The translations under genes were made by a program, and so were the position numbers. 28,169 nt of DNA from a virus, in IMG/VR virus record IMGVR_UViG_3300037049_000150, positions 1-28,169 of that record; one strand, written 5' to 3'. Every line of letters starts with the position of its first letter. The stretch's first letter is position 1. The notes beneath the pieces are model-generated. The model did not search any database, was not told where the DNA came from, and saw nothing but the letters and a program-made list of their open reading frames with translations. Of this stretch, positions 10,699 through 26,165 are shown in pieces.

Positions 10699-11294
10699 TT
10701 GAGCGTGATCACCTTCACCGTTCCGCCGTCCCAGGCCAGTTGCATGAAGCGCTTGAAGGTCATGGTGTCGTCGTCAAACCGGCAGATTCGGGCGAACTGG
10801 CCGGTCCAGGTGATCGGGAGGCCGTTGGCTGGCGCTGTCGTGAAGGTCACCGCGCCGGTTGTGGCGTTGTAGCTCACGCCGGAAGTCTGGAGGACGCCGT
10901 TGACGTAGATGGCCGCGGACTGGATGATTCCCGCCGAATAGCCCTCGTTATCGACAAGCTGGAAGACGGTCTGCGCGCCGGTGCCGGTGCCGAACGGGCA
11001 GGCTGTCGGGCTTCCGTTTACTGGGTCGATGAAATAGAAGCTGTCCCAAGCCCCGCGCATGGTGTTAAAGAAGCTGGCAAGCTGAAGGAGTTCGTCGGAG
11101 AGCGTCTTGGCGCTGAAGCCGGCCTGACGGACGAAGTTCAGCGTCCATTCGTAGGTCCAGCGCGGGACGGTCCAGAAGGTAGCCCGTTGCTCTTTACCGC
11201 TGGCGCTCGTCTGGATCATCGTCGAGAACTGCGATGTGCGGTCAACCTCGATGTCCAGGCCCTTCAACGTCGATGGGAAAAGCAAGCTGCTCAT
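10695..11294 (-). CDS. DUF2460 minor tail protein
   Basis: This 199-residue protein matches the DUF2460 / TIGR02217 tail family. It has an N-terminal LKGLDIEVDRTSQFSTMIQTSASGKEQR, then PRWTYEWTLNFV, and a mid-protein GAWDSFYFIDP. A short beta region YVNGVLQTSGVSYNATTGAVTFTTAP and the C-terminal WDGGTVKVITLK follow. In phages and gene transfer agents this protein precedes the BR0599 and NlpC proteins, as it does here. It is the first gene of the distal tail block after the + strand island. Confidence 0.88.
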   Translation of the reverse strand: MSSLLFPSTLKGLDIEVDRTSQFSTMIQTSASGKEQRATFWTVPRWTYEWTLNFVRQAGFSAKTLSDELLQLASFFNTMRGAWDSFYFIDPVNGSPTACPFGTGTGAQTVFQLVDNEGYSAGIIQSAAIYVNGVLQTSGVSYNATTGAVTFTTAPANGLPITWTGQFARICRFDDDTMTFKRFMQLAWDGGTVKVITLK

Positions 11295-11332
11295 GCGCCG
11301 TCCTCGGGTGTTCCGCGTCGAACAAAAGCCAC

Positions 11333-11359
11333 ATACTGTCGCATTTCAGACACAGTATA
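11333..11359 (-). promoter_or_regulatory. inverted repeat overlapping a -10-like box, distal tail promoter candidate
   Basis: ATACTGT at 11333-11339 and ACAGTAT at 11352-11358 form a perfect 7-bp inverted repeat with a 12-base gap. On the - strand a TATACT -10-like box (11354-11359) lies inside one arm; no good -35 is visible. It is about 40 bases upstream of the DUF2460 start, so it could be a repressed promoter restarting transcription of the distal tail genes. Confidence 0.35.
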
Positions 11360-11441
11360 GAGCGGAATCGGGGCAAAAAGCCGGCCCCGGAGGCTCTGAA
11401 ATGAGAAATCGAGAAAGTCGCAATTTTGTTTACATTTCCTC

Positions 11442-11470
11442 TTGACTTTGTAAGCAATAATGATTACATT
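11442..11470 (+). promoter_or_regulatory. hicAB promoter with overlapping operator
   Basis: TTGACT at 11442-11447 and TACATT at 11465-11470 are separated by exactly 17 bases. An inverted repeat TGTAA (11449-11453) / TTACA (11464-11468) with a 10-base gap covers the spacer and the -10 box, and a further TTACA at 11430-11434 mirrors the left arm. This suits autorepression by HicB. The expected transcription start falls on or near the hicA ATG at 11477. Confidence 0.55.
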
Positions 11471-11476
11471 AGATAC

Positions 11477-11653
11477 ATGAAGAGCAGCGAGTTCAAGCGG
11501 TGGCTGACAGCACAGGGGGCAACATTCGAGGGCGCGAAAGGCTCCCATCTGAAGGTGAAACTGAACGGCAAAACATCCTTCCTGCCGATGCACTCCAAAG
11601 AACTCAAGACCGGCCTGGTCGAAGGCATCAAAAAACAGCTAGGGTTGAAATAG
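11477..11653 (+). CDS. hicA: HicA-family mRNA interferase toxin
   Basis: This 58-residue protein is typical in length for HicA, a double-stranded-RNA-binding-fold toxin that cleaves mRNA. It has KSSEFKRWLTAQGATFEGAKGSHLKV, with the catalytic histidine of the GSH motif at His24, and a C-terminal TGLVEGIKKQLGL helix. The ATG at 11477 is chosen because HicA proteins begin here. Only six bases separate it from the -10 box, and no ribosome-binding site is seen. It is followed by hicB after 8 bases. Confidence 0.92.
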   Translation: MKSSEFKRWLTAQGATFEGAKGSHLKVKLNGKTSFLPMHSKELKTGLVEGIKKQLGLK

Positions 11654-11661
11654 GAGGATTC

Positions 11662-12081
11662 ATGTTGCGCTATCCAGCACATCTCGAACCACAGAAGGAA
11701 GGCGGGTACGTCGTCACCTTCCCCGATATTCCCGAGGCAATCACCCAGGGCGAAGACGTTGAAGATGCTCTACACCACGCCGCCGACGTTCTGGAATCGG
11801 CCTTGGATTACTACATCGAGGAGGGCCTTACGATCCCCGCGCCCTCCAAACTCAAGCGCGGCCAGCACGTAGTTGAACTGCCAGCCAGCTACGCGGCGAA
11901 GATCCTGCTCTTGAACGAAATGGCAACACAGAAGGTCAGACCGGCAGAACTGGCGCGGCGCATGAAGGTCACCCGGCAGGAAGTCAACCGGCTCGTGGAC
12001 TGGCGCCACGCGTCTAAGATCGACGGGATCGCCGGCGCGCTCAAGGCGCTGGGCAAGACGATGGAGATTCGGGCGGTTTAG
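11662..12081 (+). CDS. hicB: HicB-family antitoxin with helix-turn-helix
   Basis: This 139-residue protein starts at ATG 11662 behind GGAGG. The N-terminal half is the partial RNase-H fold of HicB (RYPAHLEPQKEGGYVVTFPDIPEAITQGED, then DALHHAADVLESALDYY). The C-terminal half is a Xre-like helix-turn-helix (PAELARRMKVTRQEVNRLVDW, around residues 92-112). HicB binds and inactivates HicA and represses its own promoter. The open frame upstream of 11662 is a shadow of hicA. The pair lies opposite to the tail genes that flank it. Confidence 0.92.
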   Translation: MLRYPAHLEPQKEGGYVVTFPDIPEAITQGEDVEDALHHAADVLESALDYYIEEGLTIPAPSKLKRGQHVVELPASYAAKILLLNEMATQKVRPAELARRMKVTRQEVNRLVDWRHASKIDGIAGALKALGKTMEIRAV

Positions 12082-12095
12082 TTGGGCTTGCGGTC

Positions 12096-12121
12096 GGGGT
12101 CGGGTGCGGGGATGAGCAGGG
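12096..12121 (+). other. G-quadruplex-type motif after hicB
   Basis: Four G runs (12096-12099, 12102-12104, 12108-12111, 12119-12121) have loops of 2, 3 and 7 bases, which fits the classic G-quadruplex rule on the + strand. It starts 15 bases after the hicB stop. It could pause transcription; this is inference. Confidence 0.35.
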
Positions 12122-12139
12122 TAGTGACGGTCCCCGGTT

Positions 12140-12175
12140 TGCAAATGCGGTATGGGCTGCAAACTATTGTATGGG
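12140..12175 (+). repeat. short direct repeat upstream of the secreted cargo gene
   Basis: Two copies of TGCAAA followed by GTATGGG occur at 12140-12156 and 12158-12175; the spacers are 4 and 5 bases. They lie about 85 bases before the secreted-protein gene at 12260 and could be regulator half-sites. No convincing -35/-10 pair was found in the 12082-12259 gap. Confidence 0.35.
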
Positions 12176-12259
12176 TTGGGGTTTTGGGCGCGAAACTGCG
12201 GCGAAAGATTGACGCGCTGGCGGGTTGTGCTGTGAAGTAGGGGTGTAAGGAGTACGACC

Positions 12260-12727
12260 ATGAAAGCGTTCGCTGCTGTTGTGTTGCTGATTTTTTCTGC
12301 TAGTTTGACGTTTGCCCAGAACAGTGCTTGGGAATACAGTGTTGATAAGAACGCGATGGAAACCAACAGAAGTACCGAGTTTGCAATGACGTACGGCGGA
12401 AATACAACCCTTGTGGTCCGCTGCAAAACCAGGTGCGAAGTGTATTTGAAATTAAAAGGCAACATCTTTGAGGATCAGACTTCAGTCCGAGTAAAGTTCA
12501 ACTCTTCAACGCCGAAACGCTTTTCGGTTTCAAGGGGAGAGGGGTCGGACTCTCTATTCTTTACTCAGCCTATAGAGTTCCTTCGTGCCGTTCGGGATAA
12601 CGGGGGATACGTCGTCATCGAATACTCCCCATACGAGAAAATACCTGACACTGACACACTGCGGGTGTGGAACTTGCCGCCCACAATACTGGCGCGGTTG
12701 AGCGGGAAGCGACTAGCCTTAAAATAG
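12260..12727 (+). CDS. secreted protein, probable cargo (moron) gene
   Basis: This 155-residue protein starts at ATG 12260 behind AAGGAG. Residues 1-19 form a signal peptide ending SLTFA-Q. The mature part has WEYSVDKNAMETNRS, TTLVVRCKTRCEVYLKL with a close Cys pair, and a further beta pattern to YVVIEYSP. This loosely resembles small periplasmic proteins of the VasI type, but I do not assign that family. The DNA is visibly AT-richer than the flanking tail genes, and the gene runs opposite to them; both fit recent acquisition. Possible roles include superinfection exclusion or a host fitness trait. Confidence 0.7.
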   Translation: MKAFAAVVLLIFSASLTFAQNSAWEYSVDKNAMETNRSTEFAMTYGGNTTLVVRCKTRCEVYLKLKGNIFEDQTSVRVKFNSSTPKRFSVSRGEGSDSLFFTQPIEFLRAVRDNGGYVVIEYSPYEKIPDTDTLRVWNLPPTILARLSGKRLALK

Positions 12728-12735
12728 CTGCTCGT

Positions 12736-15294
12736 CTAGCCCCGCCGGTTCTTCGCCGCCTCTTTGATAGCCGCCATGATGTTCCCTTGGTTCTGCTGGA
12801 AGAATGCCTTTGAATCAACTCCACCGTGGATATGGAGGTGCGTGTCGCCCCCGCCGCCATTCCCTCCGATCCCCCCGCCCGCTATGGCGCTACGCAACGG
12901 GTTGGCGATGCTGGCCGGTAGGATCATCTCGCTTTTGTGGATCTGTGCAATCTGGTCAGACGGGACGTTATCCCAGCCGCCGGCCGCTGAGGACATGTGC
13001 ATCCCGAGAGCGATTACAGAAGCCACAACGCCAGCCGCAACAGCGGGCGCAAGGAACGGACCCACGACGGGAATGGCGCTGATAGATGCCCAGGCTGATG
13101 CCGCCGCCTTCCAGCCCTCAATGGCAATCCACTTGATGCCCTCAGCGAGCTTGAGAGCCATGGTTTTCAGGGATGCCCATATTTCGGTTGCAACACGAGT
13201 GGCAGACCCGGCAAGGGTAGACCCGGTCTTCGCGCCCTCGACGGCTACATGGTGCGCCCCTGTCACTGTGTCGCTGGCCATCGTCTTTGCATCAGCCGCC
13301 GTCTGTACGCCCGTGCGAACCCCGGTCTGCGCCGTTGTTGCGGTGGTCTTGGCGACTTCGACAGAGAGGTGCCTTGCCAGCATTTTGACCATCTGCTGAA
13401 TAACGAAGTCCATGGCTGACCCCATGATGGACTTGAAGGCTTGCCCGAAACTCTGGGTTCCCTTAATCATCCCGGAGATCCCAGAACTGAAACCGGAGGT
13501 CAGGCCGTTGACCCAAGTCTGAGCGGTTTTCAGATGGTCTGCCGCCTCCTTTTTGTCAATCACGGCCGATTCCGCCGCCGCCCTTGTTTCTTCGGCGGTT
13601 TTGAGCTTCATCAGCTTCGCAAACTCCTCAGCATCGCCCGCGTAGAGAATTTTCTTGATCTGGATTGCCCGCTCTTCATCGCTCAGAACAGCGGCAATAT
13701 AGGCATGTTCCGCCTGTAAAAGCTGTTGTTTGGTGATGATTCCCGCCGCCGCATCATCCCGCGCCAGTTGGACCGTCTTTGCCGCCGCCGCATTCTGGAG
13801 AGCCAGGCTTTCGTCGATAGCTCGCGCCCCGTCTGCGCGCCGCTGCGCCCCCTGCTCTTTGGTTGCCTCGGTCATCTTGGCCTGTGCGGCTGCATACTCC
13901 GGCCCCATGCCGTTGTAGACGGCCCTGAGACGAGCAACCTCATTGGTAGCCAATTGGACGCGCTCCGCACTACCCTTTGCGGCTGCACTGTATTTGCGCT
14001 CAAAGCCTTGCTCGGAGGCCTTCTCGCCTTCCTCGGCTCCCTTGCGGGTGAGTTTGTCGATCTCGTTTTGAATATCGGCGAGGGCTTTCGCCCCCAAGCC
14101 GCCGATGGTGGCCATCGTCTGCCAATATTCGATTTCGCGCTGGGTGCTCCACGTAAACCAGTTCTCCTTTAAGGCCTTCTGCGCATCGAGGTTTTCCTTG
14201 AGCGCGGCCATCTGCTCGGACGACGGGTCTTTGTCTTCCTTGCTGTCTTTCTTTGCCGCCTCGGTTCTTGCGTTGCCGGAGCGCGCATCGTGCTCAGTTT
14301 TTACAGTTTTCGTGTCGGCGGCATATTTCTGGAGGATGTTGAGAAGCTCGCGCTGTGCGTTTACCTGCCGATTCAGCGATTCAACAGAGCCATTTTCGAG
14401 TGTTACATTCTTGGCTAAAAGTGCCGTTTTTGCCTGCTCAAACTCGTTATAAGCCCCCGCGCTTTTCGACCCCGCGCCAGAAAAAGCGTCCTGCGCTTTT
14501 TGAAGGTTTGCGAAAATTTCCGACTCACGGCTGAGCTTCGCGGTCAGCAAATCGTGCGCCTCGCCCTGCTTATTTACGTCTGTCTGAAGCTCCTCATATT
14601 CAAGTCGGAAGGATTCAAGAGACGCTTTCTGCCCCGCCGCGCCACTACCAAACTGAAACCAATGTACCGCCATGCCATCAAAAACCGAGTTGGCGATTTT
14701 GGAAAGGGATTCAAACTGCTCGAAAAGCTCATTCATGGAGGCGTGGTCAATTAGCTCCAGCTTGATACGGAGCGCCTCCATCTGGTTCCCGGCAAGCTCC
14801 GCCGTCTTTTCCTGTGCCTCCAGGAGCTTGTCGTTTAGGGAGTTGAACGAGCGATTGCTCTCGATTCCCGCTTCTTTTTCGGTTGCGGCGAGCTTGCCGG
14901 ATTCCTCGCGGAACTCCATCAGTTTTTCGACGCCCTTGGCAATCCATTCGATCATCTCCATGATGGCCAAGGGAGCGAAGGCCATCGACAGAGCCTGACC
15001 GACGCCGGGGAGCGTGGCGACGAAGCCACCGACAGCGCGGTTCATGCCGAGCATGTGGGCAGCGTGGCGGGCCTCGGTCTTACTGAAGTCACCCTCCATG
15101 CTTTCGGCGGCTTCCTTTGACTGCCCAGCCATGCTGTCGAACGAGGAGGCAGAGGCGGCGGTCAGGGGAGCAAAGGACGCGGCCATCTTCGCCGTGGAGT
15201 CCTTAACGCCACTGGTGGCAGTGTTGAGCCCATCCATCAGCCCTTGAATCTGGGCTGTGATTTGTACACTGATCTCGCCGCCGTCGTCTGCCAT
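12736..15294 (-). CDS. tail tape measure protein
   Basis: This 852-residue protein is the longest tail gene. It starts VQITAQIQGLMDGLNTATSGVKDS, has a hydrophobic stretch near residues 85-130 (VGGFVATLPGVGQALSMAF) and a long, charged coiled-coil centre. A second hydrophobic stretch lies near residues 735-770 (AIPVVGPFLAPAVAAGVVAS). The C-terminus contains THLHIHGGVDSKAF. This architecture, and its place after the tail chaperone, identify the tape measure, which sets tail length during assembly. The length suggests a tail of roughly 100-130 nm by the usual rule of thumb. AGGAGG precedes the ATG, just after the chaperone extension's stop. Confidence 0.9.
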   Translation of the reverse strand: MADDGGEISVQITAQIQGLMDGLNTATSGVKDSTAKMAASFAPLTAASASSFDSMAGQSKEAAESMEGDFSKTEARHAAHMLGMNRAVGGFVATLPGVGQALSMAFAPLAIMEMIEWIAKGVEKLMEFREESGKLAATEKEAGIESNRSFNSLNDKLLEAQEKTAELAGNQMEALRIKLELIDHASMNELFEQFESLSKIANSVFDGMAVHWFQFGSGAAGQKASLESFRLEYEELQTDVNKQGEAHDLLTAKLSRESEIFANLQKAQDAFSGAGSKSAGAYNEFEQAKTALLAKNVTLENGSVESLNRQVNAQRELLNILQKYAADTKTVKTEHDARSGNARTEAAKKDSKEDKDPSSEQMAALKENLDAQKALKENWFTWSTQREIEYWQTMATIGGLGAKALADIQNEIDKLTRKGAEEGEKASEQGFERKYSAAAKGSAERVQLATNEVARLRAVYNGMGPEYAAAQAKMTEATKEQGAQRRADGARAIDESLALQNAAAAKTVQLARDDAAAGIITKQQLLQAEHAYIAAVLSDEERAIQIKKILYAGDAEEFAKLMKLKTAEETRAAAESAVIDKKEAADHLKTAQTWVNGLTSGFSSGISGMIKGTQSFGQAFKSIMGSAMDFVIQQMVKMLARHLSVEVAKTTATTAQTGVRTGVQTAADAKTMASDTVTGAHHVAVEGAKTGSTLAGSATRVATEIWASLKTMALKLAEGIKWIAIEGWKAAASAWASISAIPVVGPFLAPAVAAGVVASVIALGMHMSSAAGGWDNVPSDQIAQIHKSEMILPASIANPLRSAIAGGGIGGNGGGGDTHLHIHGGVDSKAFFQQNQGNIMAAIKEAAKNRRG

Positions 15295-15302
15295 GCCGCC
15301 TC

Positions 15303-15560
15303 CTAGAATCCGACGATGCCAGCCTCAAGTGTGGCTAAAGCGTCATCCTCGGTCATCGTGCTGGTTGCTTTTTCGTCTTTGCCGCCGCCCAGGTACGCCT
15401 TGACCATGATGTGAAGCGGCGGGCAGACCTTCCAATAACCCAGAAGGTCCAGAACGTCCGGCCATGGAGTTGCATCGACAATGCGCGCCGTCCAGGTGGT
15501 TGCGGTGATGATGAGCCCGTACAGTTCGCCCCAGTTCAGCGGCTCCGCTTCACCTTCTGA
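15303..15560 (-). CDS. tail assembly chaperone extension (gpT-like), expressed by -1 frameshift
   Basis: From 15560 down to the TAG at 15303-15305 a second frame encodes 85 residues: LNWGELYGLIITATTW near the start, then WPDVLDLLGYWKVCPPLHIM and VKAYLGGGKDEK. This YW-x4-PP-x2-H pattern is that of the gpT-type C-terminal part of tail chaperones. The frame has no ATG, GTG or TTG start upstream of a mid-domain ATG. It is shifted -1 relative to the 15536-15871 gene and overlaps it by about 25 bases. It is best read as the extension of a gpG-gpT fusion made by -1 slippage. Its stop precedes the tape measure ATG by 8 bases. Confidence 0.65.
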   Translation of the reverse strand, partial: SEGEAEPLNWGELYGLIITATTWTARIVDATPWPDVLDLLGYWKVCPPLHIMVKAYLGGGKDEKATSTMTEDDALATLEAGIVGF

Positions 15561-15871
15561 GGCCCCGCTTCCCCCTTGAGGCCGGTGACCTCCGCAACGC
15601 CTTCGACGGCGCGCTGAATCTCCGCAAAAGGCATCGTCTCGACCGCTTCGAGGGTCAGATCGGGGTACTTGTTCGACAGAGACAGGTGCACCAGATCGCA
15701 GCAGTGACCAACCATCTCAGGCATGGCCTTCATGGGTGAGATGGTGCCGGCCTGAAGCTGGCCGTTGATTTCGTCGATGGCTGCAAGCTTGGCAGACGCC
15801 TGGTGACGCAACTGCCCAGCGGTAAAGGGTTGAAGATCGTACTCGGCTCCTTGAATCGTGACGGTGCTCAT
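15536..15871 (-). CDS. tail assembly chaperone (gpG-like)
   Basis: This 111-residue protein starts at ATG 15871 behind GGAGG; an earlier in-frame ATG exists but lies before this site. It opens STVTIQGAEYDLQPFTAGQLRH and has the helical middle of a tail-tube chaperone (LAAIDEINGQLQAGTISPM, HCCDLVHLSLSNKYPDLTLEAVETM). The C-terminus is basic (KVKRSR). It lies between tail tube and tape measure genes, the usual place, and binds the tape measure during assembly. Runs of G near its end (15571-15575 and 15563-15566) are candidate slip sites into the extension frame. Confidence 0.8.
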   Translation of the reverse strand: MSTVTIQGAEYDLQPFTAGQLRHQASAKLAAIDEINGQLQAGTISPMKAMPEMVGHCCDLVHLSLSNKYPDLTLEAVETMPFAEIQRAVEGVAEVTGLKGEAGPQKVKRSR

Positions 15872-15901
15872 GCTTTCGGCCTCCATGGCTGAGATGGGAA
15901 C

Positions 15902-15923
15902 GCGCCGCCCTCTCAGGCGGCGC
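15902..15923 (-). terminator. intercistronic GC hairpin after the tail tube gene
   Basis: GCGCCGCC at 15902-15909 pairs perfectly with GGCGGCGC at 15916-15923 around a 6-base loop, 8 bases past the tail tube stop. No T run follows on the - strand. It may reduce read-through into the chaperone gene or protect the tube mRNA. Confidence 0.5.
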
Positions 15924-15930
15924 ATCCGGG

Positions 15931-16662
15931 TTAGGAGTTGGTGTAGACGTTGATGACGTTGTCGAGCGAATCAGCGAAGGCCTGGAACTCCAGATCGACT
16001 TCGGTGTGATCGTCCTGCTTGGACGCCAGAGAGAGCTTCGGAAAAATGACGGCAGCGAGTGTGTATCCGAACTGCTTGCCGCCGTAGGTGTTGAAGCAAT
16101 TCAGCTTGAAGATGGTGGCCGAGCCCATGAGGGGGTTGTTGAGGTCGATGTTGTTGCCGGTGACCATGGTGTAGGTGTAGTACAAGCCCACCTGGTGCGT
16201 GGTGTCGGCAGCGGCGAAGGTGTAGACGCCCAACGCCGTGACGCTGTACTGGCCGGTGGCCGGGGCGCTGGCAACACACTTCATCCAGATTCCGGCGGTG
16301 TAGTCATACACGCCGCCGTCCGCTACGAAGGTTGCTCCATTGAGAGCGGTGATTTGGTATGGGGTGGTTGGGACGTTGGCGATTTCGTTGTTTGCCGCGG
16401 CGGTCTGCCCCGTTGCGGTCGTCGATCCAGCCAGGATGGCGGCGATGAGCCCTGCCTGAATGCGGCCTGACTTCGCCTTTCCGCTGATCTTGCCTTTGCC
16501 GAGCGCGACGTCTTCGGGGAACGCCTTAGCGCCGATGAGTTCCTTCACATCGCGAGAGATGTCAATCGAAACATCCTTCAGCGTGCCTACGTTGACGGGA
16601 GTGGGATTGGTGCCGGGCGGGATAATGAAAAGCTGGCCGACGCCAAAGTTGTATTGAGCCAC
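15931..16662 (-). CDS. major tail tube protein
   Basis: This 243-residue protein opens YNFGVGQLFIIPPG and has the tail-tube pattern of a beta-rich protein. An early segment DVSIDISRDVKELIGAKAFPEDVALGKGKISGKAKSG has the E-L-x-G-x2-x-FP motif common in siphophage tube proteins. A glycine/threonine-rich central insert (around residues 95-170, GGVYDYTAGIWMKCVASAP) is probably a surface domain. The C-terminus LEFQAFADSLDNVINVYTNS completes the beta barrel. Position between terminator-type gene and chaperone supports the call. Confidence 0.88.
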   Translation of the reverse strand: MAQYNFGVGQLFIIPPGTNPTPVNVGTLKDVSIDISRDVKELIGAKAFPEDVALGKGKISGKAKSGRIQAGLIAAILAGSTTATGQTAAANNEIANVPTTPYQITALNGATFVADGGVYDYTAGIWMKCVASAPATGQYSVTALGVYTFAAADTTHQVGLYYTYTMVTGNNIDLNNPLMGSATIFKLNCFNTYGGKQFGYTLAAVIFPKLSLASKQDDHTEVDLEFQAFADSLDNVINVYTNS

Positions 16663-16726
16663 GGTGATACTCGCTTTCTGGCGTGGTCCTCAGTCGGCCT
16701 CTGCGGACACCCCGGTTGATGGTCGG

Positions 16727-16900
16727 TTAGAGAATGGCTGCCAGGCGAACCTTGAGGGCTTCCTTGGCTGCGTACAGCTTGTTGTGTGCTTCGGTGTCCA
16801 AGACGCTGTTCAGGTTCTGGCGTAGGTCGTTGAACCACGTCTCGATTTCGGTAACCCACTTGGCCGGTTCGGCTGCGGGCGTTGCGGTCTCTGCATCCAT
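16727..16900 (-). CDS. small helical protein between tail terminator and tail tube genes
   Basis: This short gene encodes 57 residues from ATG 16900 to TAA 16727-16729, behind a strong AAAAGGAGG; the site lies directly after the upstream stop. The product is acidic and helical: KWVTEIETWFNDLRQNLNSVL, then HNKLYAAKEALKVRLAAIL. The size, ribosome-binding site and spacing argue that it is real. The opposite and shifted frames here are shadows. The function is unknown; a tail assembly factor is a guess from position. Confidence 0.7.
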   Translation of the reverse strand: MDAETATPAAEPAKWVTEIETWFNDLRQNLNSVLDTEAHNKLYAAKEALKVRLAAIL

Positions 16901-16913
16901 CAAGCGCCTCCTT

Positions 16914-17390
16914 TTAGGCGGTCGTTACGATCTCCAGGGGAACCTCTACGATGCCCTGGGTTTGGAAAAGCCCCTCATCCTTGACCACGGTCCCGAAGAT
17001 CCTGCATGAGGACACAAGGCCTCCGAGCGTGGTGTGTGGCGCTTGCCCGTCATTGGCGAACGGTCCCATCTGCGCAGCTTCACCCGCCGTCAGTTCCAAG
17101 GCAGCCTCAAGCGCGGTGATGAGAGTGTTCTGCAGCGTGCTCGGCGCGGCCATCGGGTCAGCGTCGTTGCGCGTGTAGATCACCAGCTTGGGGCGCAAGG
17201 TCCACACGGTAGGCTGGCGCCGGTCACCGCTGGCCGTCTCATCACCAGCCGCAAGGAAGAGCGCGGGCTGTGTCTCAGGCGGTGTGTCGGCATAGCCTGT
17301 CCACAGGCGAGAGCAGCCGGTTGTGAACCCGGCAACAGTGGACAGGCGCGCATTGAGTGCAACGAAGATCGCTTCACGGTTTAAGGCCAT
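16914..17390 (-). CDS. tail terminator-like protein (gpU position)
   Basis: This 158-residue protein starts REAIFVALNARLSTVAGFTTGCSRLW, the N-terminal helix typical of tail-completion proteins. It has TLRPKLVIYTRNDADPMAAPS and a C-terminal beta segment GIVEVPLEIVTTA. These features and the place between the gp10-like neck gene and tail tube gene fit a gpU-like tail terminator, which caps the finished tail. Its ATG overlaps the stop of the neck gene (TGATG). Confidence 0.75.
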   Translation of the reverse strand: MALNREAIFVALNARLSTVAGFTTGCSRLWTGYADTPPETQPALFLAAGDETASGDRRQPTVWTLRPKLVIYTRNDADPMAAPSTLQNTLITALEAALELTAGEAAQMGPFANDGQAPHTTLGGLVSSCRIFGTVVKDEGLFQTQGIVEVPLEIVTTA

Positions 17391-17890
17391 CAGTTGCCCC
17401 CTATCGCACTTGCCAGCCGTGCGCGGATTTCGTCCTTCATGTCAGCCAGGGCCGGTTGCAGGAACGGCCGAGCCTCTTCATGCTTCGTGCCGGGTGGATG
17501 CTTGGCGGCGTACTTCATGGCGGCAAGGCTGGTCATAGGCTTCTTTGGACCTCCCCGCGCACCAGCGCCTATCTTGCGGTCAAAGCCTTTTTCCCAGTAA
17601 GCGCCGTAGGGAGCGTTCGGGCCTACGCCCACGCTGCTGCTAAAGGTGCTCACGCCGTCACCGCCCGGCTTGACATTGATGGACCCGATTAGATTTCCGG
17701 TCCTTCCAATACCTAAATGGCCAGGGCGTGGTCCGTTGAGGTATTTGGAAATCACCACTCCCTGTGTGGAAATTCCCAGAGCGTCAACGGTCATACGGAC
17801 GCGCTTACGCTTTGCCACGCTGATCTGTGCAAGCTTGGCGACGACAAGCTCTGAACCGACGATCTGGCCAACAATGAACGGGACGCTCAT
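17390..17890 (-). CDS. HK97 gp10-like head-tail joining (neck) protein
   Basis: The ATG at 17890 overlaps a TGA in another frame as ATGA, which indicates the true start of this 166-residue protein. It has the HK97-gp10-like pattern: KRKRVRMTVDALGISTQGVVIS, then GRTGNLIGSINVKPGG, PYGAYWEKGF and a C-terminal KHEEARPFLQPALADMKDEIRARL. These proteins join the head connector to the tail. The same frame is open upstream into the replication gene, discussed in the next entry. No partner head gene is found upstream. Confidence 0.85.
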   Translation of the reverse strand: MSVPFIVGQIVGSELVVAKLAQISVAKRKRVRMTVDALGISTQGVVISKYLNGPRPGHLGIGRTGNLIGSINVKPGGDGVSTFSSSVGVGPNAPYGAYWEKGFDRKIGAGARGGPKKPMTSLAAMKYAAKHPPGTKHEEARPFLQPALADMKDEIRARLASAIGGN

Positions 17891-18874
17891 CCGACAACCT
17901 TCCGCCAGTTCGAGAGCGAGTCTTTGGCCCAGTTCGGAATCGAGGCCGTCGAGTAGCGATCTGCCATTTGCAGAATCAGGGCCGTCAGGGTTTGCCCATC
18001 CGAAGCGCTCAGCAGCCTTTGCGAGGGCTGCTCGGTTATTTGCAACACGCTGGCTAGTGACACTTGGCTTAGTCGTTCCACTGCCGTTCTCCCGTGGGGT
18101 TTGTGTGGCCTTTTCGGCCAGTTCCGTTGCTTTGCCCGCCTGTAGCGCGTAATCCAGCGTTGCTACCCACCCCCGGTCATTCGCCCCGGCGTACCATGCC
18201 GTCGCGGCCAGGAAGGCACACGCGGCGCGAAAGTCGGGCAACCAGCCGGGTTCCTTGAGCCGGGTTTGAATCACCGTCTGGCGCTTGGGTGTGCTCTTGG
18301 CCTGGGGGAGCTTGCCTTGGGTGGCTTCGTTCCAGATCGCGACGACGTCGGCAGACTTCACGGCGGGGGCGGTCGATGGAATCGACAGAGGCTTTTGTTC
18401 TTGTTCTTTATCTGACTCTGTCTCTGACTCTTGTATGCCGTTGGTGTCCGATTCTGATAGGTGGCCTATAGGTGACCTATCGTTATCGGGCTTGGGGGTA
18501 TCCTTGGGGGCCGGTTTCTTACCCCAGCGCTTGTTGATCGAATCCCGTCCGACTTCCCGTTTGTGTTCGCGCTCAGCGTTCAGCACTTGACGCTGGGAAT
18601 ACATGAAGCGGTTCGCCCGCTTGCCGGGTTCGATCTCCGGGAAGAACTGACCTACGATAGGCCAGGCTTCCTGCATCTCTGGGAGCGTCAGGCGGCAGAC
18701 CCGGGCGAGAATAGCCAGGTCGTCGGTGATGTGGCCCTCGATCCACTGGTGCATCAGGAGCCGCGTAGCGCACCCGAACTCGATAGCGTTCATGGCGCTT
18801 ATCAGGCCATCAGAAAGGAACTCTTTCGGGTCAACCTTGAACCAAAAAAACGGATCATCTTCCTTGCGTTTCAC
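17390..18874 (-). CDS. chimeric open frame: DUF1376 replication protein joined to the gp10-like protein
   Basis: One uninterrupted frame of 494 codons starts at GTG 18874, immediately after the VRR-NUC stop. Residues 1-110 match the DUF1376 phage replication type (FWFKVDPKEFLSDGLIS, then RLLMHQWIEG). Residues 110-170 form a polar linker, and the middle has FRAACAFLAATAWYAGANDRGW as in O-like initiators. After KPSVTSQRVANNRAALAKAAERFG (about residue 293) the protein stops looking natural until the gp10-like part begins at Met at 17890. In this gap the overlapping +1 frame has the better third-position GC. The real replication protein probably ends in or near the gap; a genuine fusion is less likely. 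Confidence 0.55.
   Translation of the reverse strand: MKRKEDDPFFWFKVDPKEFLSDGLISAMNAIEFGCATRLLMHQWIEGHITDDLAILARVCRLTLPEMQEAWPIVGQFFPEIEPGKRANRFMYSQRQVLNAEREHKREVGRDSINKRWGKKPAPKDTPKPDNDRSPIGHLSESDTNGIQESETESDKEQEQKPLSIPSTAPAVKSADVVAIWNEATQGKLPQAKSTPKRQTVIQTRLKEPGWLPDFRAACAFLAATAWYAGANDRGWVATLDYALQAGKATELAEKATQTPRENGSGTTKPSVTSQRVANNRAALAKAAERFGWANPDGPDSANGRSLLDGLDSELGQRLALELAEGCRMSVPFIVGQIVGSELVVAKLAQISVAKRKRVRMTVDALGISTQGVVISKYLNGPRPGHLGIGRTGNLIGSINVKPGGDGVSTFSSSVGVGPNAPYGAYWEKGFDRKIGAGARGGPKKPMTSLAAMKYAAKHPPGTKHEEARPFLQPALADMKDEIRARLASAIGGN
17887..18081 (-). pseudogene. out-of-frame coding remnant ahead of the neck gene
   Basis: In the frame +1 to the replication protein, an ORF opens at GTG 18081 and ends at TGA 17887-17889, overlapping the neck gene's ATG. 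Its last ~40 codons (SDGQTLTALILQMADRYSTASIPNW, then AKDSLSNWRKVVG) read like real protein. About 76 percent of third positions are G or C there, against about 49 percent in the other frame (hand count). It could be the C-terminus of a lost head gene, or the frameshifted end of the replication gene. The part upstream of about 18000 is probably not coding. Confidence 0.45.
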
Positions 18875-19357
18875 TCAGCGCGCTCCTGTCAGTAATTCGT
18901 TCAGGTCATCCGGTGACCAGATGATGCCCACCAGCGCCCCGGCCTCAGCCATCGTGTCGAGGAAGGCAAGCTGCTCATCGGATGGTTTACCCGGCGCGGC
19001 CTTTTGGATCAGTCGCCCTGTCTTCGGGGATCTGGTCAGCCACTCAGGCGCTTTGACTTCGATGTAGAGCGCCCGCCCACCGGGGAGAGTGCCCAGGATA
19101 TCGGACAGGCCAGCAGAGCAAGCGCCCTGTGTGCCGCCCTTCATAATCGCGGCGGCGTTGCGCACTCCCGCACCCCTCAGCACCCTGCAAGCCCTTCCGC
19201 GGAGCTTTGCGCCGCCGGCGTCAACGGCCAGGGCGGGAATGCGATGCAGGTTGAGGGTGGCCAGTGCGTTCTTTTGGACGGTGGCCTCGGATACGCAGCC
19301 GAGGAGATAGGCGTCGTTGTAGCGGGAGCGGTCGAAGCTGTCGTAGTAGAGCCTCAT
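18875..19357 (-). CDS. VRR-NUC domain nuclease
   Basis: This 160-residue protein belongs to the VRR-NUC (PD-(D/E)XK) nucleases, which in phages act as Holliday-junction or structure-specific nucleases. The core is visible: SEATVQKNAL with Glu24, GLSDILGTL with Asp86, ALYIEVKAP with Glu100 and Lys102, then SDEQLAFLDTMAEAGALVGI. The middle (residues 50-80) carries a Gly/Arg-rich insertion with paired Cys. Its ATG overlaps the methyltransferase stop (ATGA), so it is co-translated with the two methyltransferases. Confidence 0.88.
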   Translation of the reverse strand: MRLYYDSFDRSRYNDAYLLGCVSEATVQKNALATLNLHRIPALAVDAGGAKLRGRACRVLRGAGVRNAAAIMKGGTQGACSAGLSDILGTLPGGRALYIEVKAPEWLTRSPKTGRLIQKAAPGKPSDEQLAFLDTMAEAGALVGIIWSPDDLNELLTGAR

Positions 19358-21186
19358 GCAAGCACCGCCTCAAAGAGCGCCGCGGCCATCGGCGGCGGAA
19401 CCGCATTGCCGATCTGCTTGACCACGGCCTCACGGTTGCCGGTGAATTCATAGCTGTCGGGGAAGCCCTGAGCCCGCGCCAGTTCGCGGGGTTGCAGCAT
19501 CCGGAAGCGAATCTCGAGCCTGTAGACCAGATGGCCCTCAGCGATGAGTTGCGGAATCACCAGACCACTGCGCGGCTTCGTGGTCACGGCTTCGAGCGGG
19601 TCATCTACCGAGGCGGTTGTCCCGGTGCCGAAGTACTCGACCAGGTAAGGCTCGGTGACTCCTTCGCCCATCGACCGTGTGACAGTTGGCATCGGCCGGT
19701 TTACCGAGCGGTGCCGTTCGCCTCCGGAGTGCGTAACAGTGACCATGCTCGGCTCAAGCTGTACGAGAGCGCGACGGTCGTTGGTCAGGACTGCCCCGAG
19801 TGGATCTTCGAGACTGTGCGGGTTGCGGCCCTGCCCCTCCGTCCCGCCTGCGGTTGTGAGGAAAGGTTCAGCAAGCCCGACTCCACGGCTCGTCGTGGTG
19901 ACCGTCCCGGCTGGCCGGTCCACACTGCGCGGCTCTGCACCGCCGAACTGTGGAACGATGAACGGTTCAGCTACTCCGTAATTGGCCCCCTTGGTGGTGA
20001 GAGTTGCCAACGGCGCATCAACTGGCCGCGCACCTTGACCCTTGCGAAGCAAAACCGGGAAGGGTTCAACTATGCAAGCATTCGCCTTCGTCACCACGGT
20101 TGGGACCGGCTCATCGACACCGCGCACTGTGCCACTGGCGCTGGTGTGATCGATCTGCATCATGAACGGTTCGCAGAGTGCGAAGTCGTTGCTTGTGGCT
20201 GTGACGGTGTGGAATGGGATGTCGACACTGACGTTCGGGTCTTTGGTCCGGTGAGGCAAAAGGAACGGCTGCACCAGCGCGTAGTTATTCCCGCCGCCTG
20301 TCACGGTCTGAAGTGGATCGTCAACGCTGGCAACCGTTCCGGTTCCGCGCATCACCACCAGGTACGGGCGAAGGCCCTCCTCGAAGCACTTCGCAAGGTT
20401 CAGGTGGATGCCGTTGAATTCCTTCATGCCAGCCTGGATGCGCCTCAGCGTGTTCGGCGCCAGCGGCTTCTTTCGGTCGAAGATGTCCTTGCTGGGCAGG
20501 TTCCAGTCGATGATTTCGCGGGCCGTCTTCCAGTTCGGTCGAGTCTCTGGGAACATCGGCAGAGATGAGTCTTTGGCAGCCGGGCGAACGTGCGTCGGCT
20601 CTGGCCAGACGATCTTCTTATTGCCACGGCGCGCAATCAGGAACAGCCGCCGCCGCGTCGTGGGAGCGCCATAGTCAGCACAGTTCAGGACGCGGTACTC
20701 GGCACGGTAGCCGAGAGCCTTGAGGCTGGCAACGAACTGCTGGAAGAGTTCGCCGCGCTTCGACACCATCGGGCGTCCGTTGGCTCCAAGCGGTCCCCAC
20801 GAGACGAACTCGGGCACGTTCTCGATGATGAGGTTGTCGATGTAGAGCACTTGAGCCCAGCGGAGAATCATCCACGCGCTCGACCTGCTCTGGTCATTCA
20901 TCGGTCTACCGCCCCGAGCTACCGAATGGTGAGTGCATTCCGGAGAGGCCGCGAGAACATCCAGCCGGCCGCCAGGTACCAGCTTCAGCGGGTCCACTAC
21001 ATCGACGCCGGTGCAGAGGTTCTGAGCCTCGGGATGGTTGAGCGAGTGCGTGTCAATGGCAACCTGCCAGTGATTGATTGCAAGTAGCCGCAGATCGGCG
21101 TGAAGGTGATTCGCGGCCATCAGCATGCCCTGCGAAGTTCCGCCCGCGCCACAGAAGAGGTCTGCCCCCATAATTGTCTTTCTCAT
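19354..21186 (-). CDS. C5-cytosine DNA methyltransferase with eight internal repeats
   Basis: This 610-residue protein is a Dcm-type enzyme. Motif I is FCGAGG (residues 11-16), motif IV is SPECTHHS with catalytic Cys84, motif VI is ENV (122-124), and motif VIII is TRRRLFLIA near 175-185. The C-terminal QGFPDSYEF and QIGNAVPPPMA are motifs IX and X. Between VIII and IX, residues ~283-548 hold eight ~33-residue repeats of the form S-V-D-x-P-x2-T-V-T-x-N-x-L-V-E-P-F-L, where the target-recognition domain is expected. It would methylate cytosines in phage DNA and block host restriction. The ATG overlaps the preceding stop. Confidence 0.92.
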   Translation of the reverse strand: MRKTIMGADLFCGAGGTSQGMLMAANHLHADLRLLAINHWQVAIDTHSLNHPEAQNLCTGVDVVDPLKLVPGGRLDVLAASPECTHHSVARGGRPMNDQSRSSAWMILRWAQVLYIDNLIIENVPEFVSWGPLGANGRPMVSKRGELFQQFVASLKALGYRAEYRVLNCADYGAPTTRRRLFLIARRGNKKIVWPEPTHVRPAAKDSSLPMFPETRPNWKTAREIIDWNLPSKDIFDRKKPLAPNTLRRIQAGMKEFNGIHLNLAKCFEEGLRPYLVVMRGTGTVASVDDPLQTVTGGGNNYALVQPFLLPHRTKDPNVSVDIPFHTVTATSNDFALCEPFMMQIDHTSASGTVRGVDEPVPTVVTKANACIVEPFPVLLRKGQGARPVDAPLATLTTKGANYGVAEPFIVPQFGGAEPRSVDRPAGTVTTTSRGVGLAEPFLTTAGGTEGQGRNPHSLEDPLGAVLTNDRRALVQLEPSMVTVTHSGGERHRSVNRPMPTVTRSMGEGVTEPYLVEYFGTGTTASVDDPLEAVTTKPRSGLVIPQLIAEGHLVYRLEIRFRMLQPRELARAQGFPDSYEFTGNREAVVKQIGNAVPPPMAAALFEAVLA

Positions 21187-23693
21187 GCTGCACCTTCCTG
21201 TAAAGCGTCGAACAGCGATGGCATGTCTTTCTCCAGTTCGGCTTCACGGAGGTACTTCACCCCATCCTTGAAGTAGTCGGCATTCAACTCGCAGGCCTTC
21301 CCGTAGCGCCCGAGCTTGATGGCCCGGTAAGGCACGGTGAACAAGCCGCCGAAAGGGTCAAAGACAATCTCGCCTTCGTTGGTGTAGCGACGGATGATGC
21401 GGTCGACGATGTCAAATTGCAGCGGGCAGATGTGGTTTGTGAGCCCGCGCTGGGTCTGCGCGCCATTCAGGGTCAGCATCCGGTTGACGTCGTGCCACAC
21501 GTCGTCATGGTGCGAACCGGGCGCCAAGGTCATGAACGTCGCCGGGAGAGCGCCGCGGGCGTCGAGAGTTTCACCCAGGGCGATGTGCTGCTCGTGGTCG
21601 TAGACGGTCTCAAGGCTGTGCTTCTGGTACACGCGACCGATCGCTTCGGGTCCGAGTTGCTCGAGCTCTGCCGGCGAAAGCATCCGATCACCGCTTGAAC
21701 GCCAGAAAGCATGAGCATCGACCTGCCACCGTGCCCGCGTGTAGTCAGACTTGGCCTTTTCGACTCTGACGTCGGCATAGGCCTTTTGCGTGTCCGTCGG
21801 GAGTTTGCGGAACAGGAGGATGTATTCAGGGCTTCCCACGCCCATCTTCGTTCCGTCCTTGCACTGCTCTGACCAGCCAAGGCGGTAAGTTTGGTTGTTT
21901 TCCCTGACCACGTCCGTCACGACGGTGATCATGCCCATGTACCGGAAGCCGTGCTTGCGGTAGTGAACGATGCAATCGCAGTGGAAGGGGTCAACGGTGG
22001 GCATCCCGTCGCCGGTCACATTGCCGAACCGGATCCTGTCCTTGACGTGGATGGCTGCAACCCGGCCGGGCCGCAGAATCCTGAGCAGTTCCGGCGTCAG
22101 GTAGTCCATCTGGTCGAAGAACTTGCCGTTGTCTTCGTTATGCCCGAAGTCGTTGTAGCTCGCGCTGTACTCGTAGTGATTGCCGAAAGGGATGCTGGTG
22201 TGGATGAGGTCGACCGAGTTCTCTTCCATTTGGTGCGTCTCACTTACACAGTCATTCAAGGCCACATCGAAGTGCGCGCCCGCTTCCACCTTGCGTTCGA
22301 CGCCGATGGACCGGCGCAACTCATCTTCGAGGCCTGTCGTCGAAAGCCCGTGCTTCCGAATCAAGGCGCTCATCTCTTCCCGGAGTTTCATGTCCTCTGC
22401 CCACTTTCGTTTCAGTTCGGCAAGAATCTGGCGCTCCGTCTCCGTGTAGATGATGTCGATGGTCACCTGTTCAGCCTGGAGGAAGCGATAAATGCGATGG
22501 ATGGCTTGAATGAAGTCGTTGAACTTGTACCCGATGCCGACGAAGATGGCCCGATGACAATGGCGCTGGAAGTTACAGCCGCTCCCGGCGATGCGGGGCT
22601 TCGTGCTCAGGATCCGGAATAGCCCGTTTCCGAAGTCGATGATGGCCTGTTCGCGTTCGTCCAGGTCCTGCGAACCGTAGACCTCAACCGAATCGATGGT
22701 GTCGCGGATAGCGTCCCGCTCGGACTCAAGGTCATGCCAGAGGATGAAATGCTCATCCGGCGCCGCGTCCACGATCTGCTTGGCGGTCGCAACCCGGAGG
22801 TCGATGCTGTCCCGCTTCTCGGAGGCCGCGTCTTTTAGGCCGATGGCCGCATCGTTGATAAGTTGAATCTGGCCGTCCCGGTCCACCTTGCCGCCAAGGT
22901 TGTGCATCTTCACTTCGTGGTACCGCACGTCCAGCGGGGGGAGGTCGTAGCCTTCGTCTGAGTAGCCGAGGTCTGAGGGCTTCTGGAGGAAGATGGCCCA
23001 CGAGTGCAGCCAGGTGTAAAACTCCTTCTCCATGTGCGGATAGAGCGTGAGGTTGTTGGCTTGCGTTGAATCGCGCTGGAAGAACCGGGTCAAGGCCTGC
23101 CCGGTGTCCATGATGCCAAGGAAGCCCGCGTAGTGAATCAGTTCCTTATAGCGGTTGGGTGACGGCGTGGCAGTCGCGACGAACTTATAGGGCACATCGC
23201 TAAAAAGTGGCAGGAACTCCTGATAGGTCTTCGAGCCGTAACTCCGCAGGACCGATGCTTCATCCAGGCTGACAACTGAGAAGAGGTTCGGATCCAGCTT
23301 GCCGTCGCGGATGGACTCGTAATTGGTGACATAGAACTCTTGCGCGGCCGTCATTTCGGTAGAGCTGCGAATGAAGCTGTAGTTGACCCCGAGCGCTGGC
23401 GCCGTCTTCATGAACTCCTGACGGCAACCGAGCGGGCAAACCACAAGCGCGGGGCCTCCGGAGTGCGGTTGAATGTGGCGCTCGATTTCGACTTGCATGA
23501 AGGTCTTGCCGAGTCCGAAGGCTGCGAAGATGGCGCGGTTGCCGCCCTTGATGGCCCATCTCACGAGGTCACGCTGGTGAGGCTTGAGGATGCTGCTCAG
23601 CGCGGATTCGTCGACATCAAAGCCGGTGTTTTTGGTGAAGCGAAACTTGGTTGCGAGGAATTCGTTATAGCTGTCCGCGAAGGCGTCAGGCAT
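21183..23693 (-). CDS. SF2 helicase-DNA methyltransferase fusion
   Basis: This 836-residue protein has two halves. The N-terminal ~430 residues are an SF2 helicase: PHQRDLVRWAI, Walker A FGLGKT with Lys63, Walker B SLDEAS with Asp144-Glu145, TATPSPNRY, and a second lobe with HRIYRF. The C-terminal half is an N6-adenine or N4-cytosine methyltransferase. Motif IV comes first, as HTSIPFGNHYEYS near residue 498, where most enzymes have D/N/S-PP-Y/F. Motif I FDPFGG follows near residue 777. Similar fusions occur in phages. Motif order is that of the beta class. It may combine DNA translocation with protective methylation. It overlaps both neighbours. Confidence 0.85.
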   Translation of the reverse strand: MPDAFADSYNEFLATKFRFTKNTGFDVDESALSSILKPHQRDLVRWAIKGGNRAIFAAFGLGKTFMQVEIERHIQPHSGGPALVVCPLGCRQEFMKTAPALGVNYSFIRSSTEMTAAQEFYVTNYESIRDGKLDPNLFSVVSLDEASVLRSYGSKTYQEFLPLFSDVPYKFVATATPSPNRYKELIHYAGFLGIMDTGQALTRFFQRDSTQANNLTLYPHMEKEFYTWLHSWAIFLQKPSDLGYSDEGYDLPPLDVRYHEVKMHNLGGKVDRDGQIQLINDAAIGLKDAASEKRDSIDLRVATAKQIVDAAPDEHFILWHDLESERDAIRDTIDSVEVYGSQDLDEREQAIIDFGNGLFRILSTKPRIAGSGCNFQRHCHRAIFVGIGYKFNDFIQAIHRIYRFLQAEQVTIDIIYTETERQILAELKRKWAEDMKLREEMSALIRKHGLSTTGLEDELRRSIGVERKVEAGAHFDVALNDCVSETHQMEENSVDLIHTSIPFGNHYEYSASYNDFGHNEDNGKFFDQMDYLTPELLRILRPGRVAAIHVKDRIRFGNVTGDGMPTVDPFHCDCIVHYRKHGFRYMGMITVVTDVVRENNQTYRLGWSEQCKDGTKMGVGSPEYILLFRKLPTDTQKAYADVRVEKAKSDYTRARWQVDAHAFWRSSGDRMLSPAELEQLGPEAIGRVYQKHSLETVYDHEQHIALGETLDARGALPATFMTLAPGSHHDDVWHDVNRMLTLNGAQTQRGLTNHICPLQFDIVDRIIRRYTNEGEIVFDPFGGLFTVPYRAIKLGRYGKACELNADYFKDGVKYLREAELEKDMPSLFDALQEGAA

Positions 23694-24018
23694 TGATGGC
23701 TCCCACGTAGAGCAGCGATCGCCAAACCTGCACGTTGCGCCGGCGCGCAGATACTCTGCTCGACTTGCGAAAGCGGCTCGTTTGGGTGATGAGCCCGTTC
23801 CCGGCGGCGCGGCGGAACGCAGCCCCTACGGCGTTCGGGTGGAGAAAGTTGGTGACGGCGACGGCCTCAAGGATGGTCCAGACCTCATCGGAAGTAATCT
23901 CAGGCTGTTGCGCGGCGGCGGTAGCGATGGCAATGTAGCAACGGCTAAATTCGGCGGTTGCGATGACCTTCTCAATGCCTTCGTCGCGATAGAACGCGGA
24001 CAGTTGGGCATTCAGCAT
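23686..24018 (-). CDS. small winged-helix-like DNA-binding protein
   Basis: Start chosen at ATG 24018, overlapping the upstream stop (TGATG) and behind AAGGAG; an in-frame ATG at 24054 would lie inside the upstream gene. The 110-residue product has helices around residues 5-60. It also has NFLHPNAVGAAFRRAAGNGLITQTSRFRKSSRVSARRRNVQVW, a pattern common to phage winged-helix proteins near replication genes. The basic R-rich segment suits DNA binding. The exact role is unknown. It overlaps the helicase gene by 8 bases. Confidence 0.7.
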   Translation of the reverse strand: MLNAQLSAFYRDEGIEKVIATAEFSRCYIAIATAAAQQPEITSDEVWTILEAVAVTNFLHPNAVGAAFRRAAGNGLITQTSRFRKSSRVSARRRNVQVWRSLLYVGAINA

Positions 24019-24518
24019 CAGCGGTCTCCTTCCAGGAAGTAGCCGCATTTGCATCCTTCAACGGTGCAGCGGCCCGGTTTGCCCGTCTCAGTGCGGGCGT
24101 GCTGTTTGATGTGGTGGCCGCAATAGGCCTTGTCGCACTGACAGGCGACGATTTCACGCATGAGGCGGAAGGTGCGCGGCGCGTACAAGTCGGGGTCGAT
24201 CTGGCGCGGGATGCCGATCTCTTCCTCGGCAATGCGCTCAAGCTCAGACCACTCGGCAATCAGCAGCGGCCATGCGGTGTTCTTGACGGTCAACAGGAAC
24301 TCGAAAGCTGGCTCACGCATCCATGGGTGCTCTCTCAGGAGGCGGATACAGGCGGCAAGCTCAGCGGGCTTTGTCGGTGCGCTGCCAGGGTAGCGGAGGC
24401 GCATCGACGCATAAGACAGGACAGTGACCGCCTGAGGTATCGCCGCGGCCTTCGCGGTCAGGTGCAAAACGCTGTTCATCCGGGCGGCGTGTTCGCGTAA
24501 TGTGATCGTTGTTCCCAC
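24018..24518 (-). CDS. helical protein with C-terminal zinc-binding segment
   Basis: The gene starts at GTG 24518, with AGGAGG just upstream. The 166-residue product is helical through residues 1-120. Its C-terminal 40 residues carry CQCDKAYCGHHIKQH, then CTVEGCKCGYF: six Cys and three His in two groups, a likely zinc-binding module. No family name is recognised. It is the first gene after an intercistronic hairpin and is coupled to the winged-helix gene downstream. It may bind DNA or protein in the replication region. Confidence 0.7.
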   Translation of the reverse strand: MGTTITLREHAARMNSVLHLTAKAAAIPQAVTVLSYASMRLRYPGSAPTKPAELAACIRLLREHPWMREPAFEFLLTVKNTAWPLLIAEWSELERIAEEEIGIPRQIDPDLYAPRTFRLMREIVACQCDKAYCGHHIKQHARTETGKPGRCTVEGCKCGYFLEGDR

Positions 24519-24541
24519 CGTTCCTCCTCTTGCGGGTGAAG

Positions 24542-24563
24542 GGGGCGGCTGGTTGACCGCCCC
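24542..24563 (-). terminator. intercistronic GC hairpin in the early operon
   Basis: GGGGCGG at 24542-24548 pairs with CCGCCCC at 24557-24563 around an 8-base loop, 14 bases past the stop of the 24577-24945 gene. There is no T run on the - strand, so attenuation or mRNA processing is more likely than a full stop. Confidence 0.45.
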
Positions 24564-24576
24564 GGTTAGGCGGTTG

Positions 24577-24945
24577 TCAGGCTGTTGCGTTTGCCGGAAA
24601 GAGCTTCTCTTGCAGTTCGCCGCCGGACATCTGCTGTTCGCGGACGATCTCGCCAGTGTCGAGGCGAATGATGCGCTTCACGCCCTGCTTGGGCTTGTGG
24701 AACTCAACGATGCACTCAATCTCGCGCATCTCCCAGCCCATGTTGATGTTGTTCGAGAGGCGCTGAATCTGAGTGATTTCGATCTCGATTCGCTGCTTGA
24801 ACTGCGCCTGTGCGGATTTCTGTTCCTCTTCGGCGCGGGTCTTGCTGGTTACGGAAAGCGCCAGATTCTTGGCGATCTCCCTCGTCTCCTCTTCCGTGAA
24901 CGGGTAGCGGAGATACTCTTTGACCTTTGCGGTTGCTTCTGCCAT
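24577..24945 (-). CDS. hypothetical phage early protein
   Basis: This 122-residue protein has a charged helical first half (VKEYLRYPFTEEETREIAKNLA; EEEQKSAQAQFKQRIEIEI). The second half is beta-rich (MREIECIVEFHKPKQG; VKRIIRLDTGEIVREQQM). There is no Cys, signal peptide or membrane segment. Similar small proteins occur beside RecT-like genes in phages, but I cannot name a function. It lies 20 bases downstream of the coiled-coil gene and belongs to the early operon. Confidence 0.65.
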   Translation of the reverse strand: MAEATAKVKEYLRYPFTEEETREIAKNLALSVTSKTRAEEEQKSAQAQFKQRIEIEITQIQRLSNNINMGWEMREIECIVEFHKPKQGVKRIIRLDTGEIVREQQMSGGELQEKLFPANATA

Positions 24946-24965
24946 TTGTCGGCCTTCTTTCTGGG

Positions 24966-26129
24966 TTAGTAGGTGATGGAGATGTGGCGAACTTCGCCCT
25001 TGATGATTGCCACGGTCACGGCGCGGGCGACGGCCGTTACCTGGTCAGCGTCGAGGTTGGTGTTTGCGCCCACGATGGCCTGGACGATACCTTCGAGCGC
25101 TTCGGAGTTGATCTTCCGGGAGTGCTCTTTGTTGGCTTCCCGCGCTGCCTTCGCTTCGGCTTCCTTGCGCGCCGCCTCTGCCAGACGTTCCTGCTCGGCT
25201 TCAACGGCTTGGATTGCGGCCCGTTCGGCAGCTTCCTCAGCGCGCACTCTGGCGTCGATGGCAGCCTGTGCGGCCCGCGCTTCGGATTCCACGCGGCGGC
25301 GCTCAGACTCTTCGGCTTGCTGCTGTGCCAGCGTTGCTTGCCGGTTGGCTTCAGCCTCACGCCCCAGCGCCGCTTGCCGTTCGGACTCTGTGCGCTGTTC
25401 GGCCTCACGACGGCCCCTCTCTTGCGCGTCGGCCAGGCGTTGCGCCTCAGCGTCCTTGCGCTCACGCTCGGCTGCTTGCTCCCGAAGTTTGGCGAGTTCG
25501 GCGGCGTCGGTCTCAGCCTTGACCTTTTCCGTGTGCATCTGCCTGAGAGCGGCGAGGGTGCGGTGCGTGATGGTCAGCGCCTCATCGAGGAGACCTTCCC
25601 AGGCCTCGGCCGTCAGGGGCATGTTGGCGAGGATTTCAATCTGTGCGGCGATTTCCGCGCTGGTCGAAGGCGCGTACATGACCGGCATGGAGTCGATGCT
25701 GTTCAGCCGGTTGCTGATAGCCTTCGTGCGTTCCTCGTAGGCAGTCAGATCGGCGCGTGTGCGCTCGGCCAAGGCGTCAAGGCTATCGCGCATCATCTTG
25801 CGGTTGGCATCGATGCGGCGGGGCAAGTCCTTGAGTTCGGCGACCATCTCTTTGCCGATGGCATCGAGATACGTCTTCGACCGGGTAACCTTGTGAGCCA
25901 AGGCGCGGATTTCGGCGCGTCCCTTGACGGTGGTCACGTCCAGTTCGTAGCCCTGCACCTTGTCTTCGATTGCGTTGACGATCAGGGCCAGGCCACCATC
26001 GGCGGTGAACAGGTCGCGCAGGTTGCTTGTCGTGATGGCGTACTTCTCACCATCGTCCACGAGGACCAGATCGGGGGCGGCGTCTATCCGCCCCTCGAAG
26101 ATGGTCAGGTTGTTCGCGAGTGCTGCCAT
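24966..26129 (-). CDS. coiled-coil protein of the recombination cluster
   Basis: This 387-residue protein has a folded N-terminal domain (residues 1-180; LVLVDDGEKYAITTSNLRDLF; VTRSKTYLDAIGKEMV). A very charged coiled coil of about 140 residues follows (EAEQRTESERQAALGREAEANRQ), and then a small C-terminal domain ending IIKGEVRHISITY. This architecture is frequent in phage genes next to RecT-type proteins, sometimes annotated as DUF1351-like, but the function is unknown. It could organise DNA or the recombinase. The + strand ORF opposite the coiled coil is an antisense shadow. Confidence 0.75.
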   Translation of the reverse strand: MAALANNLTIFEGRIDAAPDLVLVDDGEKYAITTSNLRDLFTADGGLALIVNAIEDKVQGYELDVTTVKGRAEIRALAHKVTRSKTYLDAIGKEMVAELKDLPRRIDANRKMMRDSLDALAERTRADLTAYEERTKAISNRLNSIDSMPVMYAPSTSAEIAAQIEILANMPLTAEAWEGLLDEALTITHRTLAALRQMHTEKVKAETDAAELAKLREQAAERERKDAEAQRLADAQERGRREAEQRTESERQAALGREAEANRQATLAQQQAEESERRRVESEARAAQAAIDARVRAEEAAERAAIQAVEAEQERLAEAARKEAEAKAAREANKEHSRKINSEALEGIVQAIVGANTNLDADQVTAVARAVTVAIIKGEVRHISITY

Positions 26130-26165
26130 GTCAAACCTCTTTTCGGGTCTCAGTTCGGCTTGCGG

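Follow-up and report, generated by a model that had tools for sequence, protein, structure and literature searches.

Why should a phage genome carry a replication protein and a neck protein in one uninterrupted reading frame, with the coding signal moving to another frame just ahead of the neck protein? The question is raised by the window, the whole stretch of 28,169 nucleotides analysed here (IMG/VR record IMGVR_UViG_3300037049_000150). The initial annotation had proposed that a deletion scar lies where the two proteins meet, in an unbroken frame running from the one into the other, and that frame is present: 494 codons on the minus strand, from 18874 to 17390, with Rep at the front and the neck protein at the back.

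17390..18874, minus strand: fused open reading frame of 494 amino acids, Rep joined in frame to the neck protein
18102..18874, minus strand: Rep (DUF1376 and O-like part), with Pfam and PHROG matches
17390..17890, minus strand: neck (tail-completion) gene with its own ATG, phrog_5 match

The front of the fused frame matches DUF1376 (PF07120; residues 11-85, E 4e-6, slightly below the Pfam cut-off) and the O-like replication family phrog_345 (residues 122-251, E 5e-11), the back the neck/tail-completion family phrog_5 (residues 344-491, E 9e-11). Between 17997 and 17888, G or C occupies a fraction of 0.75 of third positions in the +1 frame and 0.50 in the fused frame, in agreement with an earlier count by hand (76 and 49 percent); over 17952-17890 the values are 0.81 and 0.55. 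The +1 frame is open for 64 amino acids, from a GTG at 18081 to 17887, and ends, as had been noticed, in a TGA (17889-17887) that overlaps the neck ATG (17890-17888) as ATGA. A possible ribosome site, GGAAGG, is found upstream of this ATG at 17903-17898. With its own start codon and this putative site, the neck protein may still be made separately from the Rep fusion.

Among GenBank phages there is none with a Rep-neck fusion and no relative of the 494-residue frame, so that metagenome contigs had to serve for comparison. Viral contigs scanned with the 494-residue query gave nine loci, seven of which match its neck end only; L002 has the entire frame and L010 matches residues 267-307 only. Using Rep by itself as the query added no further close relatives. 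L010 (9384 bp, dataset 3300038463) agrees with the window at 124 of 124 nt (18076..17953) and diverges thereafter. Past this point it encodes an unassigned 160-residue protein in the +1 frame, followed by SSB, a ParB-like protein, a glycosyltransferase, a likely small terminase (named by its position ahead of the large terminase), the large terminase, the portal and the protease. A pattern scan for the connector tail yielded L014 (5568 bp, dataset 3300014493). This contig shares 2,807 identical bp with L010 and carries a major capsid candidate, named by position as its match is to phrog_13692 (unknown function), and a complete 193-residue connector (PF05135, Phage_connect_1; phrog_442). Its last 123 nt are identical (123/123) to window positions 17957..17835. 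L010 and L014 thus represent an undeleted parent that matches the window without a mismatch to the left and to the right of the join; it is pieced together from the two contigs, and its full-identity match to the backbone is confined to the 124-nt and 123-nt flanks. The window-identical stretches of the two contigs overlap by five bases, GCTAC, and the window is therefore missing 11,903 bp, which two 5-bp direct repeats enclose in the parent.

17953..17957, minus strand: breakpoint, with a single GCTAC left from the pair of 5-bp direct repeats; set by the limits of identity to L010 and L014
17953..18081, minus strand: +1-frame start of the parent's post-rep gene, truncated here (GTG at 18081 or 18063)
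17887..17957, minus strand: connector C-terminal remnant in the +1 frame, 22 residues and stop, 100% identical to residues 172-193 of the L014 connector

The join is very probably the scar of a true 11.9-kb deletion that took the whole head module and fused rep to the neck gene. The two public contigs holding the undeleted sequence support the reading as a scar and move its location from the guessed ~18000 to 17953-17957. A simple +1 frameshift within rep had been named as the alternative, and two overlapping open frames with a switch of coding signal ahead of the neck ATG would suit either this or a sequencing indel. The parent differs, however, by an 11,903-bp block and not by one base, and the +1 tail is identical to the connector C-terminus; since undeleted sequence exists (L010, L014), we reject the frameshift as almost certainly wrong.

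The deletion accounts for the frames as follows. In the parent, the rep frame (frame 0) runs on into the post-rep gene, which is in +1, as is the connector with respect to the neck gene. The frame switch arises because one cut joined both pairs, the +1 frame being the true coding sequence on either side of 17953-17957. In terms of predicted reading frames, the scar fuses two of them: Rep and neck protein in frame 0, and the N-terminus of the post-rep gene product with the last 22 residues of the connector in +1. In its last 22 residues the +1-frame tail, which ends in SIPNWAKDSLSNWRKVVG, coincides exactly with the C-terminal end of the complete 193-residue connector of L014, confirming the suggestion that a remnant ending NWRKVVG is a connector C-terminus. 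The scar with its connector remnant stands, with the refinement that the +1 signal upstream of 17957 belongs to the post-rep gene and not to the connector. In L010, past the breakpoint (125-270), third-position G/C is 0.75 in the +1 frame against 0.44, so that +1 is still the higher in the parent. The post-rep gene product of the parent has 160-164 residues and starts inside the 3' end of rep. It has no Pfam or PHROG family match, and a scan with it matched only L010 and the deleted contig. A role as a P-like helicase loader was considered and dropped, as no family match supports it.

The window has lost every head gene, i.e. the terminases, portal, protease, capsid and most of the connector, and the next replication-side genes of the parent were lost with the same 11,903-bp block. 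In a tblastn search of the window with 11 parent proteins, only the two remnants were matched, in a record that may be incomplete at its ends. The deleted block holds a DNA-modification-type glycosyltransferase gene (phrog_842, L010:2414-3319), and those for a C5 methylase and an N6-methylase remain in the window; DNA of the deleted form may be modified differently from that of the parent.

As the evidence consists of assembled contigs alone, an assembly or library chimera, in which case the deletion never existed in nature, has to be weighed; we hold it to be improbable. The two sides of the join share 5 bp, far under any assembly k, so reads must cross the join. A second contig, 3300038472_000023, shows the identical junction and differs at 2 of 18,205 bp (from a dataset, 3300038472, possibly not fully independent of that of the window), which makes an assembly error unlikely, and L010 and L014, two other contigs from the parent, break at the same place. 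A full-length homologue of the fusion had been expected to speak against a scar; the only one found is this near-identical contig of the same phage, and it confirms the junction. The parent contigs end 124 nt (L010) and 123 nt (L014) past the breakpoint. JGI has run MEGAHIT with k up to 123 (PMC6243002), and the contig ends fit a branch of the assembly graph at k = 123, where two paths diverge, if a comparable assembler was used for 3300038463 and 3300014493; the two overlaps differ by one base (123 versus 124). From these contig ends we infer that deleted and intact forms are probably both present in datasets 3300038463 and 3300014493; the undeleted parent probably lives alongside the deleted form.

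The closest large relative, G002 (39,972 bp), can be aligned over most of the window; identity is 83-95% in the majority of blocks and lower in the tape measure and a few small blocks. The two are collinear from end to end, and the sole large gap is the head block (G002 19742-30579), ~10.8 kb extra between rep and neck. For the large terminase and the capsid, 99% of residues are the same in the parent and G002, and nearly all window genes with a G002 match are of full or near-full length. The last 301 bp of rep (18102-18402) are 82% identical to G002 rep; the rep tail beyond ~18102 is not conserved in G002, where another gene follows rep. The latter (L017:9650-10546) encodes a 298-residue protein with an ATPase-like motif, unrelated to the 160-residue product of the parent (L010:14-496); the post-rep gene overlaps the rep 3' end by a long stretch in both the parent and G002.

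What the window keeps lies on either side of the scar:

4913..17390, minus strand: tail and lysis module, downstream of the scar
18875..28169, minus strand: replication and recombination side, upstream of the scar

The first module encodes a tail-terminator-like protein, a phrog_8234 family protein, the tape measure, tail assembly and tip proteins and an M15 endolysin, the second a VRR-NUC-like protein, a C5 methylase, a helicase/N6-methylase and a YqaJ exonuclease. At 11500-12081 the run of tail genes is interrupted by two genes on the opposite (plus) strand, one for a HicB-like antitoxin (PF15919, E 2.5e-11) and a small one after it; this stretch has no match in G002. The tape measure (12736-15294) has 38% identity to that of G002, far below its neighbours (852 versus 735 residues), a divergence that suggests another tail length or a swapped gene. 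With tail and lysis genes kept and all head genes gone, one could think of a domesticated headless tail (an F-type tailocin-like bacteriocin), its tail and lysis genes selected after head loss. We consider this very improbable: genes for Rep, recombination and methylases are all still there with open frames, the loss looks recent because the flanks do not differ from those of the parent, and there is no sign of tail production.

As to how the deletion arose, recombination between the two 5-bp GCTAC copies would have excised the 11,903 bp, one copy lying in the gene that overlaps the rep end and the other in the connector gene, 22 codons short of its end. A shared stretch of at least 5 bases at a random join has p ~0.005, and short-homology illegitimate recombination is therefore the favoured origin. 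When longer repeats were sought around the breakpoints, the only one to appear was the 9-mer CTGGCGGAA, away from the join. Site-specific recombination was set aside, the shared site being 5 bp (8/9 with one mismatch) with no other sign of it.

The window most likely descends by deletion from a temperate tailed phage whose gene order is of the siphovirus type. Its positions 1 and 28169 fall exactly at start codons of conserved genes, so that the record is probably an excerpt of a longer contig, trimmed at gene boundaries. In G002 a tyrosine integrase gene (PF00589) sits ~0.5 kb outside the position of the left edge of the window, which itself is without host flank; by this comparison an integrase is expected ~0.5 kb beyond window position 1. 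Because of this neighbour the group is probably temperate, with a defective prophage as the simplest home of the deleted genome, an assignment we think fairly likely to be right. A scan of bacterial genomes with the parent large terminase gave remote relatives only (32-34%).

If the deleted genome spreads at all, it would do so only with heads from the intact parent. Such packaging is possible because the rep, recombination, tail and lysis genes are open and the parent seems to be near. This leads to a defective-interfering (satellite-like) genome, which would use its own replication genes and be packaged in heads of an intact parent in the same cell. Intact parent sequence was recovered from other datasets, the contig ends suggest both forms in one dataset, and most replication, tail and lysis genes are kept with the head genes lost as a single block. 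The packaging site, however, might have been among the lost sequence, close to the small terminase gene, and persistence as a prophage accounts for the data equally well; we see the satellite-like form as unlikely. About as unlikely is a stable headless lineage beside the intact parent, self-replicating and carried in parent heads, which would be a satellite newly born by one deletion. A defective prophage is the reading we retain.

Phage satellites may start as defective prophages, which have been called possible proto-hitchers (PMC11389934). The founding event of satellites is rarely seen; in this case public contigs suffice to name parent, breakpoint and product, and existing reads would allow deleted and intact forms to be counted against each other across samples. 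The locus also serves as a caution: even where a phage contig looks smooth and a single clean frame crosses from one module into the next, the genome can be defective, and annotation of its genes would list a Rep-neck fusion protein that is false.

The deletion has left a defective phage genome without head genes, an example of a kind already known. Defective (cryptic) prophages have likewise suffered a large one-step loss of essential virion genes, with the remaining genes open; for these integration is part of the description, whereas here it is inferred and the exact parent and breakpoint were recovered from metagenomes. F-type tailocins have flexible-tail and lysis genes without head genes. 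The same is true of the window, but it keeps rep, exonuclease and helicase/methylase genes and has no sign of domestication. Defective-interfering genomes, which are less common in phages (PMC8635385), arise by large deletion of shared goods such as capsid genes, the shorter form appearing beside the full-length one, as seems to be the case here. Those genomes are packaged with helper proteins and lower the yield of the helper, traits that for the deleted phage are hypothetical. Capsid-forming PICI satellites (cfPICI) take their tails from the helper. They produce their own capsids (PMC11389934). Like the deleted phage, they are elements with part of a virion, but the deleted phage has the reverse part, tails without heads, and stems from what looks like a recent deletion, not from a long-established lineage.
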